NCBI RefSeq assembly: GCF_001447155.2
Contig: NZ_CP014754.1
Coordinates: 930,001 to 994,000, forward strand
From: Marinobacter sp. LQ44
GTDB lineage: Bacteria > Pseudomonadota > Gammaproteobacteria > Pseudomonadales > Oleiphilaceae
Direction of reading: 5' to 3'
DNA: 64,000 nt
Notes under the pieces: generated by a model
What the model was told of the DNA's origin: nothing
What the model saw: the letters and a program-made list of their open reading frames with translations, nothing else
Database searches by the model: none
Translations under genes and position numbers: made by a program
In this document: one piece after another, positions 13,886 to 64,000 of the stretch
How positions within the stretch are numbered: the stretch's first letter is position 1
Layout of the letters: every line of letters starts with the position of its first letter

Positions 13886-14032
13886 GGGGTCTGTCCCCGA
13901 ATGGGGACTGACCCTTTTTGGAGCCATGGGGTCTGTCCCCGAACGGGGACTGACCCTTTTTGGAGCCATGGGCTCTAGTTTGGGGGGCAAGGACGGGCAA
14001 ATGGGGGTCAGTCCCCGTTCGGGGACAGACCC
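13886..14032. repeat. Family-B palindromic repeats, three copies
   Basis: 13886-13914 and 13928-13956 are near-identical direct copies (GGGGTCTGTCCCCGA, then A or AC and GGGGACTGACCC) with a 42-bp period; 14005-14032 is an inverted copy. They fill the gap between wzi and the nuclease gene, and the stretch CCTTGGCAGA is repeated immediately after. With the promoter above they account for 13644-14055, where I see no coding gene. Confidence 0.85.
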
Positions 14033-14055
14033 TTGGCAGACCCTTGGCAGACACC

Positions 14056-19371: not shown

Positions 19372-19428
19372 TTGGGGTCAGACCCCAGGACATTTGATGA
19401 GGTGAAATGTCCGGGGGTCTGACCCCAA
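19372..19428. repeat. Family-A palindrome, copy 1
   Basis: 57 bp beginning TTGGGGTCAGACCCC and ending GGGGTCTGACCCCAA, with ACATTTGA / GAAATGT inner arms. It lies between convergent gene ends and could act as a bidirectional terminator. Confidence 0.9.
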
Positions 19429-38740: not shown

Positions 38741-38797
38741 TTGGGGTCAGACCCCCGGACATTTGGAACCGTCAAATGTCCGGGGGTCTGACCCCGT
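38741..38797. repeat. Family-A palindrome, copy 2
   Basis: About 57 bp, TTGGGGTCAGACCCC to GGGGTCTGACCCC with GGACATTTG / CAAATGTCC inner arms. It lies between the lipoprotein gene and the chemoreceptor gene, both on the plus strand. Confidence 0.9.
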
Positions 38798-40505: not shown

Positions 40506-40562
40506 TTGGGGTCAGACCCCAGGACATTTGAGGGTGCGAAATGTCCGGGGGTCTGACCCCAA
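40506..40562. repeat. Family-A palindrome, copy 3
   Basis: 57 bp with the same arms as copy 1 (GGACATTTGA / GAAATGTCC). It lies between the convergent ends of the chemoreceptor and the fusion lipoprotein and fills almost the whole gap. Confidence 0.9.
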
Positions 40563-40564
40563 TT

Positions 40565-43537
40565 TCAGGGGGTGATGGACTGGAAGATGCCGGAGCCGCC
40601 GCAGGCTTCGGCGTTGTCGTAGCCGGAATCGACGACCTGGCCAATCCAGTAGTTCAACAGTTCGACGGCCTCGGTGTGGCTGACGCTCTTGGCGATGGGC
40701 GGCATTTTGCGTTGGGGGTCGCTGGCGTCTTCCACTCGGCAGGAGACAATGGAGCGCCCTGGATCACCTGGCACGACGACATGTTGCCGGCCGCAGGAGC
40801 CGCCGCCGGTGGCGGTGGGTTTCTTGCAGATGCCATAGCCGGCGTCGATCTTGCGGTAGTGGTCCAGGTAATAGCCGGTATTGGAGGCCGCGCCTTTGTC
40901 GTTGTGGCAATGCTGGCAGTTCACTTCCAGGTAGGCCCGCAGGCGCGCTTCCACATCTTCATCTGAACCACTGGCCGCGCCGCTGTCGCCCGGTATGTTC
41001 CAATGGGGCAGGCGTTCGATGTTGGTAGCCACGCCACGGCCATCAATCTGTAGCGCCGGTGCGTTCGCCAGCAAGCCCTGGTCCTTCCAGTACTGCAACT
41101 GGTTCACCCGGGGGAAGCCGCCCTGCCCTGCGGTGCCCATGAATTCCGATTCCGGCCGGTAAGCCCGGTTCAGGTTACGGGGTTTGGGGCCGATGGGCGC
41201 TGCGCCCGCTTCCAGGTCGTCGTTGGAATGGCAAGTGATGCACTGATTCTGGTTGGGAATGGCGTAGCTGTCGGTGGAGCCAGCCAGCAGTTTGCCGGTG
41301 TGCTGGTCTTGATAGTGCCAGCTCACGCTGCGGGTTTCGCCACCGGGGACCAGCTTCGCTACTTTCTGGCCATTGACGTCGGTGCTCCAGCTGTAGGTGG
41401 GTCCACTCCAGACGGCTTTGCCACTCTGGGAGGTGCGCTTGATCAGCAGGCGAGTTTCCACCAATTCCTCGGCACCCTTGCTTTCGTCCGTAAAGGCGAA
41501 CGTTTTGGCGATCACAGTGCCAGTTGGGAAGTGAATGGTGCCGTTGAGGTTACCGCCGTTCTGGCCATCCACATACAACGCTTTGGTGCCGGGTGGGATG
41601 AATGCAACCCGGTACTTGGTGGCGTAGTCTGAGAACAGCTTGGAGTTCAGTACAAAGGGTACGCCGCCTTCGTGGGGCATGCTGCGGGGATCCTGCGCGC
41701 CTGCAAACAGGTTGTACTGGTCCAGTGTGGGGCAATCCACGGCCAGGGCATCGCGGTTGATCTGGCCGCTGGCCACCGGCGCTTCACACAGCTGATTGAT
41801 GAATTCTTCAGAAGGTGCCGGATCGATGCCTCCGCTGCGCTCAAACGGCGGAATGGTCACCCGGGGCAGGCTGGCCAGGGTGCGGCCAAAGCGGGCCTGG
41901 CAGTCGTGTTCGCTCATATCCGAATCGGCAAAGAATTCAGTCGGGCCGGTGAGGATGTCGCTCAGGCTCTGCCAGGAAAGCAGGGATGGGTTCGGATCCA
42001 TTGCCGCAAACAACAGCTCAAGGCCACGGGTGCCATGGAAGTTCATGTAGGCCAGGCTGTCGCTGGACATCTCGTTGCTATGAATACAGGCGCCCCATTC
42101 CGGCAGTTTTCGGTTGCCCTGATTATCAAACTTATAGGCGTTGTACAGACACTCGGGGTTCGGGTGCTCGTTGGTATGAATGGGCTTGCCGTTGGCTTTT
42201 TTCGGCACTGGCTGGCCATTGGCATCCACCGGGTAGGGGCAATCTGCGTTCAGGTCATCCAGCAGGCCATCCCAGACAATGTGGGCGCCTTTACCCGGCC
42301 GATTGAGGTTCTTGATGCCAATCAGTGTCGGCAGCACGGTTTCCACCTCGCCATCCACCAGCACCTTTTCCAGGTTGGGCGGTGGCAGGTCGTAGCCGGA
42401 GTTCTTCATCACGTTGTTGTGGATATGCAGGCCTTCGGTGTAAGGGTCCAGCTTTTTGTCGGACGTTTTGCCCTTGCCGTCGATCAGCTCGTAGCTGGTG
42501 TAGATGATGGCTGCGGTGCTGTTGTCTTCGAAGACGTTGTTGTATATCTCGATGTTGTCGTAACCCAGAGTGATGAACCCGGTACCCCGGGGCACGGCAG
42601 ACACAATGCCGCTGGGGGCAAAGTTGTAGGTGTTGTTGTTACGGGAGATATTATTGAGCATCACCGAGGTGTCGCCGTACTGGGTGATATTTTCCAGATC
42701 GTAGATCAGGAAGCCGCCGGTGTTGCATTCCGCCAGGTTGCTGTCGTATTCCCCGCCCTGCACGTTTTCAATCTCGAAACCCATGACGTTATAGGCGGCG
42801 CGGCTGTTGCGGATGATGGCGTTATTGGTCTGGCCAACATAGATACCGGCATCCGAGGCGCCGATGGATTCGGAGTTATCCACCAGAATGTTTTCCGACT
42901 CCACGGGGTAGATACCGTAACGGCCGCTGGAGGCACTGGGTACGTAATCCGGCGTCGGGTCGCCCTCGTTGAATGGCGGGCTGGTACATTCCACGTGCAG
43001 CCGGCTGGCGACGTTATCCCTGGTGATGGGTTCACCGCCACCGGACCAGATAGCGCGGACGTTCAACAGAGTGCCCCATTTGACGCCCTTCAGCTTGAAG
43101 GCATCGCCCGGGGAATCCAGGATGGTGAGATCCTTGACGGTAATGCCCCGTACGTTCAACGCTTCCAGACCAGTGACGTTATCGCTGTTGCGGAAGTTCA
43201 GCACGGTGTCATCCTTGCCGCAGCCGCGAATCTCCACGTCTTCCGTGGCCTGAATCAGCAGGCCGTGGTACAGGTCAAAATAGCCACAACCAAACTCCAG
43301 GCTATCGCCGGGTCGCAGCTGGATCATCGCCGCGACCATCTCTTCAGTGGCCTGTTCGCCGGGCTCCACCCTGAATACCCGGCCTTCGCTAAACCTCGGC
43401 GGCTGCTCCCCCTCCTGACCCGGCCGGTTGGCATCGGCCCGGTCAGTGCCCGATGACCCACCAAAACAACCGGACAACAGCAGCACTGCACTGATCCCCA
43501 GCACCGCAAAACCTGACGTTCTCAGTCTCTGTATCAT
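40565..43537 (-). CDS. Lipoprotein fusing a parallel beta-helix with an SO2930-type dihaem cytochrome
   Basis: 990 aa from the ATG at 43537, which has a better-placed AGAAGG than the ATG at 43546. Lipobox LLSGC (Cys24). The N-terminal part (about 50-360) is a right-handed parallel beta-helix (GITVKDLTILDSPGDAFKL, NNAIIRNSRAAYNVMGFEIE). The C-terminal part (about 560-985) has two c-type haem motifs, CITCH (about 765) and CQHCH (about 875), within an SO2930-family layout. These two families usually occur as adjacent genes; here they are one chain. The substrate is unknown. Confidence 0.85.
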   Translation of the reverse strand: MIQRLRTSGFAVLGISAVLLLSGCFGGSSGTDRADANRPGQEGEQPPRFSEGRVFRVEPGEQATEEMVAAMIQLRPGDSLEFGCGYFDLYHGLLIQATEDVEIRGCGKDDTVLNFRNSDNVTGLEALNVRGITVKDLTILDSPGDAFKLKGVKWGTLLNVRAIWSGGGEPITRDNVASRLHVECTSPPFNEGDPTPDYVPSASSGRYGIYPVESENILVDNSESIGASDAGIYVGQTNNAIIRNSRAAYNVMGFEIENVQGGEYDSNLAECNTGGFLIYDLENITQYGDTSVMLNNISRNNNTYNFAPSGIVSAVPRGTGFITLGYDNIEIYNNVFEDNSTAAIIYTSYELIDGKGKTSDKKLDPYTEGLHIHNNVMKNSGYDLPPPNLEKVLVDGEVETVLPTLIGIKNLNRPGKGAHIVWDGLLDDLNADCPYPVDANGQPVPKKANGKPIHTNEHPNPECLYNAYKFDNQGNRKLPEWGACIHSNEMSSDSLAYMNFHGTRGLELLFAAMDPNPSLLSWQSLSDILTGPTEFFADSDMSEHDCQARFGRTLASLPRVTIPPFERSGGIDPAPSEEFINQLCEAPVASGQINRDALAVDCPTLDQYNLFAGAQDPRSMPHEGGVPFVLNSKLFSDYATKYRVAFIPPGTKALYVDGQNGGNLNGTIHFPTGTVIAKTFAFTDESKGAEELVETRLLIKRTSQSGKAVWSGPTYSWSTDVNGQKVAKLVPGGETRSVSWHYQDQHTGKLLAGSTDSYAIPNQNQCITCHSNDDLEAGAAPIGPKPRNLNRAYRPESEFMGTAGQGGFPRVNQLQYWKDQGLLANAPALQIDGRGVATNIERLPHWNIPGDSGAASGSDEDVEARLRAYLEVNCQHCHNDKGAASNTGYYLDHYRKIDAGYGICKKPTATGGGSCGRQHVVVPGDPGRSIVSCRVEDASDPQRKMPPIAKSVSHTEAVELLNYWIGQVVDSGYDNAEACGGSGIFQSITP

Positions 43538-43562
43538 GACAATCATCCTTCTTCTTATATTT

Positions 43563-43619
43563 TTGGGGTCAGACCCCGAGACATTTGGTGGTGCGAAATG
43601 TCCGGGGGTCTGACCCCAA
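43563..43619. repeat. Family-A palindrome, copy 4
   Basis: 57 bp, with GAGACATTTG / CGAAATGTCC inner arms (one base differs from copy 3). It lies between the M19-like gene end and the fusion lipoprotein start, both minus strand. Confidence 0.9.
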
Positions 43620-55016: not shown

Positions 55017-55073
55017 TTGGGGTCAGACCCCAGAACATTTGATCAGGTGAAATGTCTTGGGGTCTGACCCCAA
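55017..55073. repeat. Family-A palindrome, copy 5
   Basis: 57 bp of the second subtype (inner arms AGAACATTTGA / GAAATGTCTTGG). It occupies the gap between the cysQ stop and the rfaH start, both minus strand. Confidence 0.9.
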
Positions 55074-55075
55074 CT

Positions 55076-55843
55076 TCAAAAATACCAGCTACCCGCCGCA
55101 ATGAAATGCGGATTCAGCACATCTTCCTTACCGTATTTCAGGGGTTCGCCCTGGGGCGTTTGCACGTTGCCGCCAGCGGCCAGGAGGATGGCGTGGGCGG
55201 CGGCGGTGTCCCATTCGCTGGTGGGCCCCATGCGGGGATAGATATCGGCATGGCCCTCCGCTATACGGCAGAACTTCAGGGAGCTGCCCGCCTGCACGGT
55301 TTCGTGGGGGCCGAGGGTATCAATGAAGGCGCGGGTTTCATCGTTCAGGTGGTTTTTGCTCGCCACCACTCGCAATGTTTCCCGGGGTTCCACCACGCGA
55401 ATGCGGTGTATGCGGCCAGTGCGATCACGCATGCTGGCACCCTCGCCTTTAATGCCCCAGAAGGCTTCTTTCAATGCTGGCGCCGTGACCACGCCCATCA
55501 CCGGCTCGCCGTCTTCGATCATGGCGATGTTGACGGTGAACTCCCCGGTGCGCTGGGTGAAATCCTTGGTGCCGTCGATGGGGTCAATTAACCAGAAACG
55601 ACGCCAGTGTTTGCGCTCTTCCCAGGGAATCTCTGCGCCTTCTTCCGACAAGATCGGGATATCCCGCGTGAGGTTACGAAGCCCCTTCATAATGATGTCG
55701 TGGCTGGCCGTGTCAGCAGCGGTGATGGGTGACTGATCTTCCTTGTAATTCACCTTGAAATCGGACTGGTAGATATGCAGCGCCTTCTCGCTGGCTTCAT
55801 CTGCAATTCTGATCACTTCCGGAAGAATAGAGCTGTAATACAT
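55076..55843 (-). CDS. cysQ: 3'(2'),5'-bisphosphate nucleotidase CysQ
   Basis: 255 aa, normal length. It removes the 3'-phosphate from PAP/PAPS-type nucleotides in sulfur metabolism. Metal-binding motifs are PITAADTASH, LSEEGAEIPW, FWLIDPIDGTKDFTQR and EWDTAAAHAILLAAGG, all in order. Family-A palindromes flank it on both sides. Confidence 0.92.
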   Translation of the reverse strand: MYYSSILPEVIRIADEASEKALHIYQSDFKVNYKEDQSPITAADTASHDIIMKGLRNLTRDIPILSEEGAEIPWEERKHWRRFWLIDPIDGTKDFTQRTGEFTVNIAMIEDGEPVMGVVTAPALKEAFWGIKGEGASMRDRTGRIHRIRVVEPRETLRVVASKNHLNDETRAFIDTLGPHETVQAGSSLKFCRIAEGHADIYPRMGPTSEWDTAAAHAILLAAGGNVQTPQGEPLKYGKEDVLNPHFIAAGSWYF

Positions 55844-55886: not shown

Positions 55887-55943
55887 TTGGGGTCAGACCC
55901 CCGGACATTTGATGGGGTAAAATGTCTTGGGGTCTGACCCCAA
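55887..55943. repeat. Family-A palindrome, copy 6
   Basis: 57 bp, a hybrid of the two subtypes (CCGGACATTTGA on the left, AAATGTCTTGG on the right). It is the upstream flank of the REP-associated transposase, 65 bp before its start. Confidence 0.9.
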
Positions 55944-56008
55944 CTTGAATTTTTGGGCGGGTTGCGGCAGATTGTTGTGGTTATAAATCAATTCACAAGG
56001 ACTGTGAG

Positions 56009-56659
56009 ATGCCCCGCCGACCACGGATTTGCCCGGCCGGGATGCCCCAGCATGTTATTCAGCGGGGGAATAACCGGCAGGAATGTTTTCAGGATCTGGC
56101 CGATCACGCCACTTATGCAACCTACCTTTCCCGCTACCAGCGTGAGTTCCAGGTGGATATTCACGCCTGGGTGCTGATGAGCAACCATACCCATCTGTTA
56201 GTGACGCCCAACGCTGAGGGCGCGCTTTCAAGCCTGATGAAGGCGGTTGGTCAACGCTACGCCCAATATTACAACCACAAGTATGACCGCACCGGTACCT
56301 TGTGGGAGGGGCGGTTCAAATCCTGCCTGGTGGATACCGATCAGTACTTTCTGCAATGCCAGCGGTATATCGAGCTGAACCCGGTTAAGGCGGGCATGGT
56401 GGAGTATGCCGGCGACTATCAATGGTCCAGCTATAACTGCCATGCCTATGGGATGCGTTCGGGTATGCATACGCCACACGACTGCTACCTGAACTTTCAG
56501 CCCGATGCCGAAAGGCGTTTCGTCAGCTACCGCGCCTTTATCGCTAGCCCCGCGCCAGAGGGAATGGATGAGCAGATTCACTATGCAGCCATCTCTGGCA
56601 AGCCGTTAGGGTCTGAGGAATTTCGGGAACGTATCAAGGCGAAATTCGGAGAGTTCTAA
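56009..56659 (+). mobile_element. REP-associated tyrosine transposase (RAYT, TnpA_REP family)
   Basis: 216 aa, ribosome site AAGGA before ATG. The Y1/HUH transposase core is intact: the metal-binding HxH is in SNHTHLLV (H60, H62) and the nucleophile is Tyr120 in QRYIELNPVKAGMV. Such stand-alone proteins process single-stranded palindromic repeats and are vertically kept rather than freely mobile. Family-A palindromes end 65 bp upstream and begin one base downstream, and six more copies lie in the window, so this is probably the enzyme that spread them. The C-terminal ~80 residues are an unassigned basic extension. Confidence 0.9.
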
Positions 56660-56660
56660 T

Positions 56661-56717
56661 TTGGGGTCAGACCCCAGGACATTTGATGGAGTGAAATGTC
56701 CGGGGGTCTGACCCCAA
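56661..56717. repeat. Family-A palindrome, copy 7
   Basis: 57 bp of the first subtype (GGACATTTGA / GAAATGTCC). It forms the downstream flank of the transposase and the convergent end of the next gene. Confidence 0.9.
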
Positions 56718-56719
56718 TT

Positions 56720-58081
56720 TTATATTTCGACTTCTTCGAAGAGTTCGGGCACCTCGGCGGGCCAGCCGAATTTCTCGGTGATGCGTTTGCGCATGGTGTC
56801 GCTGGCGACGGGTTCGCCGTGGGTGACGTAGACTTTTTCTGGTTTCAGGGTGCCCTGCTCCAGCCAGGCCAGGATTTCGTTGTAGTCGCCGTGGGCGCTC
56901 ATGGAATCGAGGTTGTGGATTTCCGCTTTCACTGGCCAGTATTCGCCGTGGATTTTGACGGATTCGGCACCGCTCACCAGCGCATCGCCACGGGTACCCG
57001 GCGCCTGGAAGCCGGCGAACACCACGCTGTTGCGGGGATTAGGCAACAGGGTTTTCAGGTGGTGCAGCACGCGGCCGCCGGAGGCCATGCCACTGGCAGA
57101 CACGATCACGCAGGGGTAGCGCACGGCGTCCAGCTCGATGGATTCCTCAACCGTGCGGACAAATTCGGTTTTTTCATCCATCAGCTCGCACTGGGCGCGG
57201 TTTAGTTTGTGTTCTTTGTGATGCTGGCAAAATATTTCTGTGGCTTTGATGGCCATCGGGCTGTTCAGGTACACCGGCAGTTTCGGGATTTTGCCCTGCC
57301 CCATGAGTTTGTGAATCACGTACAGGAGCATCTGGGCGCGGCCCACCGCAAACGCGGGCATTAACACGATGCCTCCCCGGCCGGAGGTTTTGGTGATGAT
57401 CTCGGCCAGGTCGCCTTCGGGGTCTGACTCTCCATGAGTCCGGTCGCCGTAAGTGGATTCGCACACCAGAACGTCCGCATGCTGCAACGGCTCGGGTGGT
57501 CGCATAATGAGATCGTTCTGGCGCCCTACATCACCGCTGAACACCACCGTGCGGGCGGCGCCTTTGTGGTGAACATGCACGCAGGATGAACCCAGGATGT
57601 GCCCCGCCGGAGTGAAGCTCACCTCAAAGCCTTTCACGGGCTCGAACTTCTCGTGGTAGTGCAGAGACTCAAAGTGTTTCAGGGCTTCCCGGGCGTCTTT
57701 TTCGGTGAACAGCGGCTCGGGTTTTTCGTGTTTGGAGAATTTCTTCCGGAACGCGTACTTGGCGTCTTCTTCCTGCAGGAAGCCGGCATCTGGCAGCAGC
57801 ACTTTGCACAACTCGTGGGTGGCTTTGGTGCAGTAGATCCTGCCCTTGAAGCCGTTTTTTACAAGTGCTGGCAGGTAGCCGGAGTGATCAATGTGGGCGT
57901 GAGTGAGCACTACAGCATCGATGGTTGAGGGGTCCACCGGAAACGTCGCCCAGTTTCGCCGCCGCAAGGTTTTTACCCCCTGATACATGCCGCAATCCAC
58001 CAGCAAGCGGTGGTTTTCATCCGAGAGTAAATAGCGTGAACCAGTGACGGTGCCTGTGCCGCCGAGGAAGCGAAGTTTCAT
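56720..58081 (-). CDS. Metallo-beta-lactamase/beta-CASP RNA-processing hydrolase (YSH1-like)
   Basis: 453 aa. Zinc ligands are in LTHAHIDHSGYLPAL, an additional His in FTPAGHILGSS, and the Asp in VFSGDVGR. The beta-CASP insert shows GRGGIVLMPAFAVGRAQMLLYVIHKL and SASGMASGGRVLHHL, and SMSAHGD provides the last ligand. The family (COG1236) includes nucleases acting on RNA. It is complete and of normal length; no partner genes are adjacent. Confidence 0.88.
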   Translation of the reverse strand: MKLRFLGGTGTVTGSRYLLSDENHRLLVDCGMYQGVKTLRRRNWATFPVDPSTIDAVVLTHAHIDHSGYLPALVKNGFKGRIYCTKATHELCKVLLPDAGFLQEEDAKYAFRKKFSKHEKPEPLFTEKDAREALKHFESLHYHEKFEPVKGFEVSFTPAGHILGSSCVHVHHKGAARTVVFSGDVGRQNDLIMRPPEPLQHADVLVCESTYGDRTHGESDPEGDLAEIITKTSGRGGIVLMPAFAVGRAQMLLYVIHKLMGQGKIPKLPVYLNSPMAIKATEIFCQHHKEHKLNRAQCELMDEKTEFVRTVEESIELDAVRYPCVIVSASGMASGGRVLHHLKTLLPNPRNSVVFAGFQAPGTRGDALVSGAESVKIHGEYWPVKAEIHNLDSMSAHGDYNEILAWLEQGTLKPEKVYVTHGEPVASDTMRKRITEKFGWPAEVPELFEEVEI

Positions 58082-58151: not shown

Positions 58152-58309
58152 GGGGTCTGTCCCCGAACGGGGACTGACCCACTTTTGCCCGTCTGTTGCA
58201 CTAAGCCAGAGCCAATGGGTTCCAAAATGGGTCAGTCCCCGTTCGGGGACTGCCCCCTGGGAGACGGGCCGCGGTAAAAGTGGGTCAGTCCCGGTTCGGG
58301 GACAGACCC
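58152..58309. repeat. Family-B palindromic repeats, three copies
   Basis: Units at 58152-58180, 58229-58256 and 58282-58309, the first in one orientation (GGGGTCTGTCCCC, GAACGGGGACTGACCC) and the last two inverted. A half unit GGGTCTGTCCC precedes the first (58140-58150). The last ends one base before the cytochrome stop codon, so it could terminate that gene. Nothing else is seen in 58082-58310. Confidence 0.85.
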
Positions 58310-58310
58310 T

Positions 58311-62602: not shown

Positions 62603-62658
62603 TTGGGGTCAGACCCCAGAACATTTGATGGGGTGAAATGTCTTGGGGTCTGACCCCA
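62603..62658. repeat. Family-A palindrome, copy 8
   Basis: 56-57 bp of the second subtype (AGAACATTTGA / GAAATGTCTTGG). It lies between convergent gene ends. Confidence 0.9.
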
Positions 62659-62662
62659 TGCT

Positions 62663-62762: not shown

Positions 62763-63377
62763 CTACTTGGCCGATGAATCAGCCATACCAGGCGGTAATG
62801 GAATCGAACCTTCTCTGACATGCTGATAGGTTATGTCCTCGTACCACGCAGGATTACCCTCAACAACTTCGGCGACAACGTTTTCTGCCAGAGGTATGTG
62901 AAAGTCGTGGCTGCGGTCGTAATTGCAGGTGTTACAGAACGCCTCCCACCAGGCAAGCGCTTCTCCCTTACCCGAAAACCCAACAATCAGAGTATGACTA
63001 TAGTCCTCAAGCGGGTAGTCCCGATACCACTGGCGTAAATTGCCATCGAGGTCATCGGGTAGCGAGAAAGTGACTTCATAGAACGTTTGGGTTCGGAAAG
63101 AAAACCAGCGGGCCTGCACGGTTCTAGGGGCAGGTTTAGGACTTATCCCCACGACGCCCCCTCCCGGGGGGATATGGTCATAACCACCACGCAGTGACCC
63201 GCCACGAGCGCTCCATATTTCATCGAAGGAAATATCTTCTACCCAAACTGGCCATCCCTGCGGCCCACCCGCAACAGAAACGGCAAAGTCGTACTCGCGG
63301 GGCTCGGAGGAACAGGCCGAAGCAAAGATCGGTAGCAGGATGATGAAGATTGCTCCAACAGCCGGGCCCTTACACAT
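62763..63377 (-). CDS. DUF2931 family lipoprotein, copy 1
   Basis: 204 aa from the ATG at 63377 (AGGAG upstream); the frame stays open to 63416. Lipobox ASAC (Cys22), then SSEPREYDFAVSVAGGPQGWPVWVED, RTVQARWFSFRTQTFYEVTFSLP and GEALAWWEAFC. It shares most of these stretches with the neighbouring gene, from which it is separated by 32 bp. DUF2931 has no established function. Confidence 0.8.
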   Translation of the reverse strand: MCKGPAVGAIFIILLPIFASACSSEPREYDFAVSVAGGPQGWPVWVEDISFDEIWSARGGSLRGGYDHIPPGGGVVGISPKPAPRTVQARWFSFRTQTFYEVTFSLPDDLDGNLRQWYRDYPLEDYSHTLIVGFSGKGEALAWWEAFCNTCNYDRSHDFHIPLAENVVAEVVEGNPAWYEDITYQHVREGSIPLPPGMADSSAK

Positions 63378-63409: not shown

Positions 63410-64000
63410 CTACCACGGCGACGGCATACTTCCCTCATCAATCAACTCCTGAGTTTGCAATCGATAGCCGCTCGGATCCCCTTCAACCACTTCGGCCTGG
63501 ACGTCTTCGATCAGCGGGGTGTTGAAATCGTGACTGCGATCATAGTTGCAGGCATTACAGAAAGCCTCCCACCAAGCCAGCGCCTCGCCCTTACCGGAAA
63601 ATCCGATAATCAAGGTATGGATATACTCGTCACGTGGGTAGTCCCGAAACCACTTACGCAACTGGTCATCAAGATCCTCCGGCAGCGATAGGGTAACTTC
63701 ATAGAATGTCTGGGTGCGGTAGGAGAACCAACGGGCATGCACGGTGCTGGGGGCAGGCTTGGGGCCCAATATGGCCACACCACCCATTGGAGGGAGTTGA
63801 TCGAAACCATGTTCAATTCCCCCAGCCGGTACCCTCCAAGATTGATCAACTATTACTTCGTCAACCCACACAGGCCACCCTTCGGGGCCTCCCGCCACAG
63901 ACACGGCAAAGTCATATTCCCGAGGTTCCGAGGAGCAAGCTGTTACCAAGACCAGCAATAGAAATGAAAAGGCTACCCTTGCCGTAATGTTATTGCGCAT
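63410..64000 (-). CDS. DUF2931 family lipoprotein, copy 2
   Basis: 196 aa; the ATG is the last codon of the window, and the signal peptide with lipobox VTAC (Cys22) makes it the likely true start. SEPREYDFAVSVAGGPEGW and the GEALAWWEAFCNACNYDRSH segment are almost identical to copy 1, while the C terminus differs (EGSMPSPW against a longer tail). The pair is a tandem duplication that has partly diverged. Confidence 0.8.
   Translation of the reverse strand: MRNNITARVAFSFLLLVLVTACSSEPREYDFAVSVAGGPEGWPVWVDEVIVDQSWRVPAGGIEHGFDQLPPMGGVAILGPKPAPSTVHARWFSYRTQTFYEVTLSLPEDLDDQLRKWFRDYPRDEYIHTLIIGFSGKGEALAWWEAFCNACNYDRSHDFNTPLIEDVQAEVVEGDPSGYRLQTQELIDEGSMPSPW

Follow-up and report, generated by a model that had tools for sequence, protein, structure and literature searches.

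To our knowledge, no benefit to the host has been established for RAYTs, although these transposases are widespread and kept under selection. Several described systems come close to the locus considered here. In TIRtrons, a RAYT-like gene (TIRYT) is situated between long inverted repeats that carry a GGGGWSAS motif (Di Nocera, 2013; PMC3733652). Most TIRYTs are taken in by subclass 2.1 of the TnpA-Y1 transposases, which equals Bertels group 1 (Quentin, 2018; PMC6006769). Repeats that crowd near rayt, in regions of no more than 200 kb, were reported for three marine gammaproteobacteria and for Thauera (Nunvar, 2010; PMC2817692). The window analyzed here is a stretch of 64,000 nucleotides, for which an earlier note had proposed a REPtron; positions are those of the window unless genome coordinates (G000) are given.

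Results and Discussion

The gene at the center of the locus (56009..56659, forward strand) encodes an HUH-Tyr (Y1) transposase of 216 aa. In this Marinobacter-type genome, no other match to PF01797 and no other Y1 transposase was found; several near-identical tnpA copies, as in IS200/IS605, were not encountered genome-wide. The protein had been described as intact, which was borne out by its catalytic residues (H60-T-H62, and Y120 within YIELNP). A structure search with the predicted model returned TnpA-REP as the closest fold (best match 4er8); middling matches to Thg1 and ribosomal protein S6 were set aside, and the score against NF033573 was under the cut-off. The gene is under purifying selection, with a dN/dS of 0.06 for the pair G000 and G080 (the rows for G065, G088, G096, G102, G118, G104, and G032 were left out). 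YIELNP (Y120-P125) and NHxH (N59-H62) are common to this RAYT and to subclass 2.1 (Quentin, 2018; PMC6006769), and four helices from residue 158 onward in the predicted whole-protein model may correspond to the C-terminal helix-turn-helix tail of that subclass. The middle residue of the HUH motif, however, is V, Y, or F there and an atypical Thr here, and whereas REP-like structures near subclass 2.1 genes were not found in that study, a clear hairpin family is present in this case. The site is bordered on the left by a cysQ-like gene (55076..55843, reverse strand), which adjoins RAYT in 15 of 18 carriers and was used to locate RAYT-less sites, and on the right by a gene (56720..58081, reverse strand) named by eye as an MBL-fold hydrolase.

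RAYT is bracketed by what are likely its substrate repeats. The left copy (55887..55943; CGG...CTT combination) lies between the starts of cysQ and rayt, the right copy (56661..56717; AGG...CCG combination) 1 bp past the RAYT stop. The earlier note had listed eight copies of this repeat (57 bp) in the window, and all eight were recovered in place. Beside the flanking pair, these are copies at 19372..19428, at 38741..38797 and 55017..55073, which both touch the end or the first possible start of a called ORF (the latter being 2 bp from the cysQ stop), and three copies at segment boundaries (see below). All eight share a 53-bp core, GGGGTCAGACCCC-NN-RACATTT-N9-AAATGT-NNN-GGGGTCTGACCCC. Half-sites with at most two mismatches numbered 59 in the window, part of them belonging to a second repeat family, compared with 2.48 (sd 1.69) in 100 dinucleotide shuffles. 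As single-stranded DNA, three copies folded far better than shuffles on both strands (z −6.6 to −9.65). By a mechanical ORF call, six of the eight copies lie at most 8 bp from a gene 3′ end and those at 55887 and 62603 do not, which moderates the previous statement that almost all are within 60 bp of a stop codon. An intergenic position, claimed for all, applies to seven if a doubtful antisense ORF of 141 aa, in which copy 62603 sits, is counted as a gene. The CCGGGGG and CTTGGGG subtypes and one hybrid do exist, but the hybrid does not speak for conversion in particular, since mixed arms of this kind are frequent: of 98 distinct copies, drawn from several species, 18 have C-T at positions 13/39.

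For base pairing, 98 distinct cores of 51 bp, taken from the loci retrieved, were analyzed. Since 11 outer and 5 inner pairs had been prescribed by the search pattern, invariance of the outer and inner stem positions is by construction, and only positions 12-16/36-40 are informative. Measured against shuffles, which are not a strict control since the copies are related to each other, pairs 12/40 (Watson-Crick in 96 cores, expected 78.7), 15/37, and 16/36 were complementary above expectation, and pair 13/39 was close to it (50, expected 46.4). Pair 14/38 fell below expectation (just 27, expected 47, sd 4.7), and a non-pairing step is thus kept between the two parts of the stem. This step recalls the bulge of the E. 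coli REP (Corneloup et al, 2021; PMC8266576).

A Y1 gene with two flanking inverted repeats agrees with the REPtron proposed at first; the GT(A/G)G type of REP does not. This tetranucleotide was absent from the hairpin foot in all eight window copies and in the flank consensus of 24 copies, which reads AATTT-GGGG...CCCC-AA(A/T)TT. Instead, the repeat unit contains GGGGTCAG on both sides of RAYT, which fits the GGGGWSAS motif of TIRs. Because the GT(A/G)G foot is missing and the GGGGWSAS motif is present, the unit is better called a TIRtron than a REPtron, and a classical GT(A/G)G REPtron with REPINs is very improbable, despite the RAYT-type protein and the two inverted repeats around it. Both long inverted repeats with GGGGWSAS by the gene and a repeat family elsewhere (29 full copies) were found, and GGGGWSAS-type repeats could also be recognized by eye on the flanks in most of the 18 close homologues. 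Judged by its sequence, the unit is a TIRtron with a single-copy Y1 transposase of TnpA-Y1 subclass 2.1. With the TIRtrons of Di Nocera (2013; PMC3733652) it has the GGGGWSAS inverted repeats and a moderately abundant repeat family in common, but its repeats also bound variable toxin-antitoxin segments, of which the parts of that report drawn on here make no mention. Similarity to TnpA-REP/REP of E. coli (PMC8266576) extends to the HUH/Tyr fold and a likely hairpin substrate; unlike that system, the present one lacks the GTAG motif and belongs to another subclass, and cleavage is ascribed to it only by analogy.

Genome-wide, 29 full copies (at most three mismatches) were detected, and none in a reversed control. 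Within 200 kb of RAYT lie 24 of them, where 2.6 were expected; without the two flanking copies, it is 22 of 27 (p 5e-19). A second cluster, at 4.20-4.24 Mb, is made up of the other five. The longest stretch free of full copies is an arc of 3.2 Mb, which contains six exact 13-bp half-sites. Crowding near RAYT was also observed in G080, where 43 of the 57 half-sites lie no more than 200 kb away, and in G106, with 22 of 31 inside 100 kb. Such a local swarm is not new, because repeats confined to the vicinity of rayt were already reported by Nunvar (2010; PMC2817692); the local accumulation is alike, but cassette-like gene variation is not described in the portion of that work consulted. Since a Y1 gene is lacking from the second cluster, which lies at a distance of 1.2 Mb, the notion that RAYT acts only in cis was weakened and not upheld. 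Ongoing spread, which the earlier note had read from the subtypes, was not borne out: over the 40 fixed positions, no copy in the 280 kb scanned differed at 3 to 9, and similarity among the 29 copies showed no gradient with distance (Mantel r −0.055, a value reached or exceeded in 3670 of 5000 permutations). A somewhat greater likeness was seen only between neighbors less than 3 kb apart, of which there are 16 pairs (370 of 20000 permutations).

A second hairpin family, B (GGGTCWGTCCCCGWWCGGGGACWGACCC), which is independent of RAYT, occurs in the window at 13886-14045 and 58152-58310, among other places. It has 38 copies genome-wide, 18 of them within 200 kb of RAYT, and bounds one 1.8-kb indel; a second Y1 transposase to serve it was not found in the genome.

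Among 124 congeners, 18 carry a RAYT of at least 68% identity. The repeat, counted with a wider pattern that takes in G088 and G018 (one base of the stem differs), is present in 22: in 16 of the 18 carriers, the two without a full repeat being G096 and G049, and in 6 of the 106 others (Fisher p 2e-13). Repeats equally common in genomes lacking this RAYT, which had been named beforehand as speaking against the association, were thus not what was observed. In five of the six RAYT-less genomes with the repeat, traces at the site or derived from it persist: a repeat, what is left of one, or fragments of RAYT. One intact repeat is left there in G020 and in G040, where it is the single matching repeat in total, and a decayed one in G031 and G095; G112 has RAYT fragments. 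G099, with the repeat and without RAYT, is an incomplete assembly with no cysQ match.

At RAYT-less sites, 25 of 30 cysQ loci were read, and the MBL gene was beside cysQ in 21. The gap between the two genes measures 90-104 bp in 14 of these 21, 13 of the 14 being without a repeat, and 3 to 870 bp in the remainder. In G097, RAYT and four toxin-antitoxin-bearing segments occupy the gap: a VapBC-like PIN, a stretch from BrnA to ParD, AbiEi/AbiEii, and an NTase_sub_bind/nucleotidyltransferase pair. A full or half repeat is found at every unit boundary of this array, and PIN_3 and Zeta units are located just outside the gap. That of G068 contains RAYT, ParDE, and a DUF4123/hydrolase/WD40 set. Comparison of G097 with the short RAYT-less gaps points to segment gain at the cysQ-MBL site, and RAYT itself behaves as a repeat-bounded variable segment. 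In G029 (locus L116), a ParDE-like pair, assigned by eye, lies in the gap with neither repeat nor RAYT.

Gene content around the repeats was compared between G000 and G080, G065, and G025, between G065 and G080, and, at their second clusters, again between G000 and G080. A segment enclosed by two repeats in one genome corresponds to a lone repeat in the other at seven sites, the HSPs overlapping by 55-63 bp (G000 coordinates 897979, 900156/900805, 905614, 910354/911524, 970508/973565, 992605/996910, and 4228254/4229969). The 3-kb segment between the repeats at 40506..40562 (genome 970508) and 43563..43619 (genome 973565), filled by a gene for a 993-aa protein (40565..43546, reverse strand), is absent from G025, in which one repeat remains. 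The repeat at 62603..62659 (genome 992605) is the left boundary of a 4.2-kb effector/immunity segment that extends beyond the window end and is absent from G080, where the single remaining repeat is half mutated. Breakpoints, taken as the ends of indels that are 100 bp or longer, fell on repeats of the query genome (half-sites included) in 15/68, 5/44, 11/58, 12/42, and 4/10 cases in the five comparisons in the above order, against an intergenic expectation of 9-12% (p 0.003, 0.64, 0.058, 0.003, and 0.009). The enrichment is uneven, and one genome pair is without it. When repeats of either genome were counted, half-sites again included, the numbers were 17/68, 5/44, 16/58, 14/42, and 4/10, a count biased toward the reading of repeats as seams, its background being from the query genome only.

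At the seam sites or neighboring repeats, Pfam matches included PemK at 900 kb, and HipA with an HTH partner at 910 kb (HipA being short) and 4228 kb. Fic and HipA/HTH were matched at 905-908 kb, and at 992 kb two DUF2931 proteins accompany a PAAR-Tle1 effector. At 895 kb, DUF2281 occurs with PemK, and the same place holds BrnA or BrnT/BrnA in G080 and G065. Further contents of repeat sites were DUF2283/DUF4258 in G065, ParD/ParE in G025, and PIN in G080, where the PIN pair has taken the place of a repeat instead of lying between two. Toxin-antitoxin modules were assigned to 11 of 18 variable segments at repeats and to 2 of 17 elsewhere (p 0.0045), with segments delimited by ourselves, the 17 controls judged by eye from translations, one positive (a zeta-like gene of G025) called by eye, and DUF2283/DUF4258 and nucleotidyltransferase counting as toxin-antitoxin-like only. 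A truncated PemK copy of G080 was dropped before this count, as were three segments, two of G025 that match in part (one flagellin-like, one of 763 bp) and a 304-bp piece of G080; with these three as negatives, the proportion at repeats is 11 of 21 (p 0.015).

Repeats around variable segments are closer to each other than those around conserved ones. Over 27 inner bases, the flanks of 14 variable intervals differed at 0, 0, 0, 1, 2, 2, 3, 4, 5, 5, 7, 8, 8, and 8 positions and those of 29 conserved intervals at a median of 6 (p 0.0024; orthologous intervals were counted per genome, and 8 of 51 that were mixed or had repeats of unequal length were dropped). Such a difference would follow from a recent insertion that duplicates the repeat and equally from deletion that depends on identity. 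G083 also has the PemK segment found at 900 kb, and so does G104, at 79% identity and with the right flank again the same. In G025, the HipAB segment at 910 kb is partly deleted, a HipB gene and part of a HipA gene being left. Several apparent insertions may therefore be losses in relatives, and the interpretation of all clean indels as gains was rejected for this reason; polarity is mixed. Between G083 and G000, whose RAYTs are 83% alike, the PemK segment together with the flank on its left is 97% alike. The truncated PemK segment of G080 lies between two identical copies of the target repeat and itself contains part of an older one.

We consider it somewhat probable that this is a TIRtron whose locally copied terminal repeats act as the seams of a zone of variable segments. 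RAYT, kept at one locus in most carriers, would have had its terminal repeats copied locally, giving rise to a swarm within ~200 kb of the gene and one distant cluster. By analogy with TnpA-REP (PMC8266576) and IS608, the protein would cut single-stranded repeat hairpins at the foot. In the genomes compared, the repeats are seams at which segments, often toxin-antitoxin modules, effector/immunity genes, and rayt, differ between species, an empty site keeping one repeat, and segments would most likely be lost by recombination between the two repeats flanking them. Weighing against this reading are the uneven enrichment of breakpoints, the presence of family B near RAYT, the repeat-free ParDE-like pair of G029, the apparent insertions that may be losses, the unbracketed PIN pair of G080, and the two RAYT carriers with no full repeat (G096 and G049). 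The agent that moves segments may be RAYT or homologous recombination using the repeats, and as this is left open, the explanation overlaps with a purely passive one, in which RAYT makes, or made, the repeats, and loss and swapping of segments, as well as their transfer from strain to strain, result from ordinary RecA-dependent or slippage recombination that uses the 57-bp direct repeats as homology. To the passive version we assign a probability neither above nor below the midpoint. Variable segments lie between the more similar repeats, as expected of identity-dependent deletion, one indel is bounded by family B repeats too, and the contrast between the PemK unit and the RAYTs of G083 and G000 is that of ordinary transfer; however, the passive version leaves unexplained how toxin-antitoxin units first came to lie between repeats and why units are stacked around RAYT in G097. 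RAYT might instead run an integron-like cassette platform as an HUH single-strand transposase: it would nick the palindromic repeat, a toxin-antitoxin or other module would enter, and the repeat would be duplicated, much as a CRISPR repeat is duplicated on spacer entry. Such a platform, which we regard as doubtful, would explain the identical or near-identical repeats around several variable segments (compared with a median of six differences in 27 around conserved ones), and also the piece of older repeat between identical target repeats in G080. Against insertion with repeat duplication stand the PemK segment in G083 and G104 and the repeat-free ParDE-like pair of G029.

That same pair is in keeping with a region that is merely plastic, an accessory zone with little essential content gathering repeats, toxin-antitoxin genes, and insertions independently. 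Family B is enriched near RAYT as well and bounds an indel, and the region may therefore simply be plastic; transposases, an intron-type reverse transcriptase, and sugar-polymer genes (by eye) also vary there, and the breakpoint enrichment is absent in one genome pair. Regional plasticity alone is nevertheless unlikely in view of the exact one-repeat overlaps at seven sites, the toxin-antitoxin excess at repeats (11/18 against 2/17, or p 0.015 with the three added negatives), and a cluster 1.2 Mb away that repeats the pattern with a HipA/HTH pair. Integrons and pdif modules resemble the seams proposed here in having short recombination sites between small units, toxin-antitoxin genes included; the differences are that here no integrase is adjacent, that the 57-bp hairpin is tied to a Y1 transposase, and that catalysis is putative. 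The segments could be attC cassettes of the genome's own IntI, for which an integrase scoring above the cut-off at 667,735 may be cited. This sole IntI above the cut-off, however, has its closest full repeat ~142 kb away and the dense array 227 kb away, the ends of seven segments coincide with the RAYT-associated repeat, and the attC core order, judged by eye against the consensus, is missing in the repeat, all of which makes an integron extremely improbable.

As far as the literature searched goes, it is new that TIRtron repeats delimit a changing set of toxin-antitoxin-rich segments; a link of RAYT or TIRYT with such cassettes was not found in open-license PMC literature. If RAYT repeats do seed a zone of swappable toxin-antitoxin/effector modules, this would give a domesticated transposase a use, and one open to a simple test, and repeat-delimited cassettes would be possible beyond integrons and Xer/dif modules. 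Even with passive recombination, repeats laid down by a transposase would shape the defence-like gene set of the lineage.

A few further elements were observed. RAYTs at ~50% identity (loci L027-L030 and L032-L035) are flanked by hairpins of the GGGGTCAGATGAA or GGGGTCAGAAGAA type, in which the outer word is unchanged and the inner arms are different; these hairpins suggest co-evolution of transposase and repeat. An alternative repeat type, with outer arms GGGGTCAGACCCC and inner arms like TGTGGATAA...TTATCCACA, was seen at G068:C7:42403, G014:C58:169519, and G065:C1:50640. These inner arms resemble DnaA boxes, for which the consensus TT[AT]TNCACA is quoted in PMC6006769. A direct repeat of 290 bp (76% identity) is located in the window at 62851-63140 and 63474-63763. 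Elsewhere in G000:C1, a trio of tyrosine-recombinase-like frames (391, 436, and 439 aa), apparently a recombinase-in-trio element, occurs in nine copies (662-666 kb and at 1275, 1313, 1801, 1940, 2076, 2306, 2871, and 3538 kb), one of which adjoins the integron integrase at 667,735.
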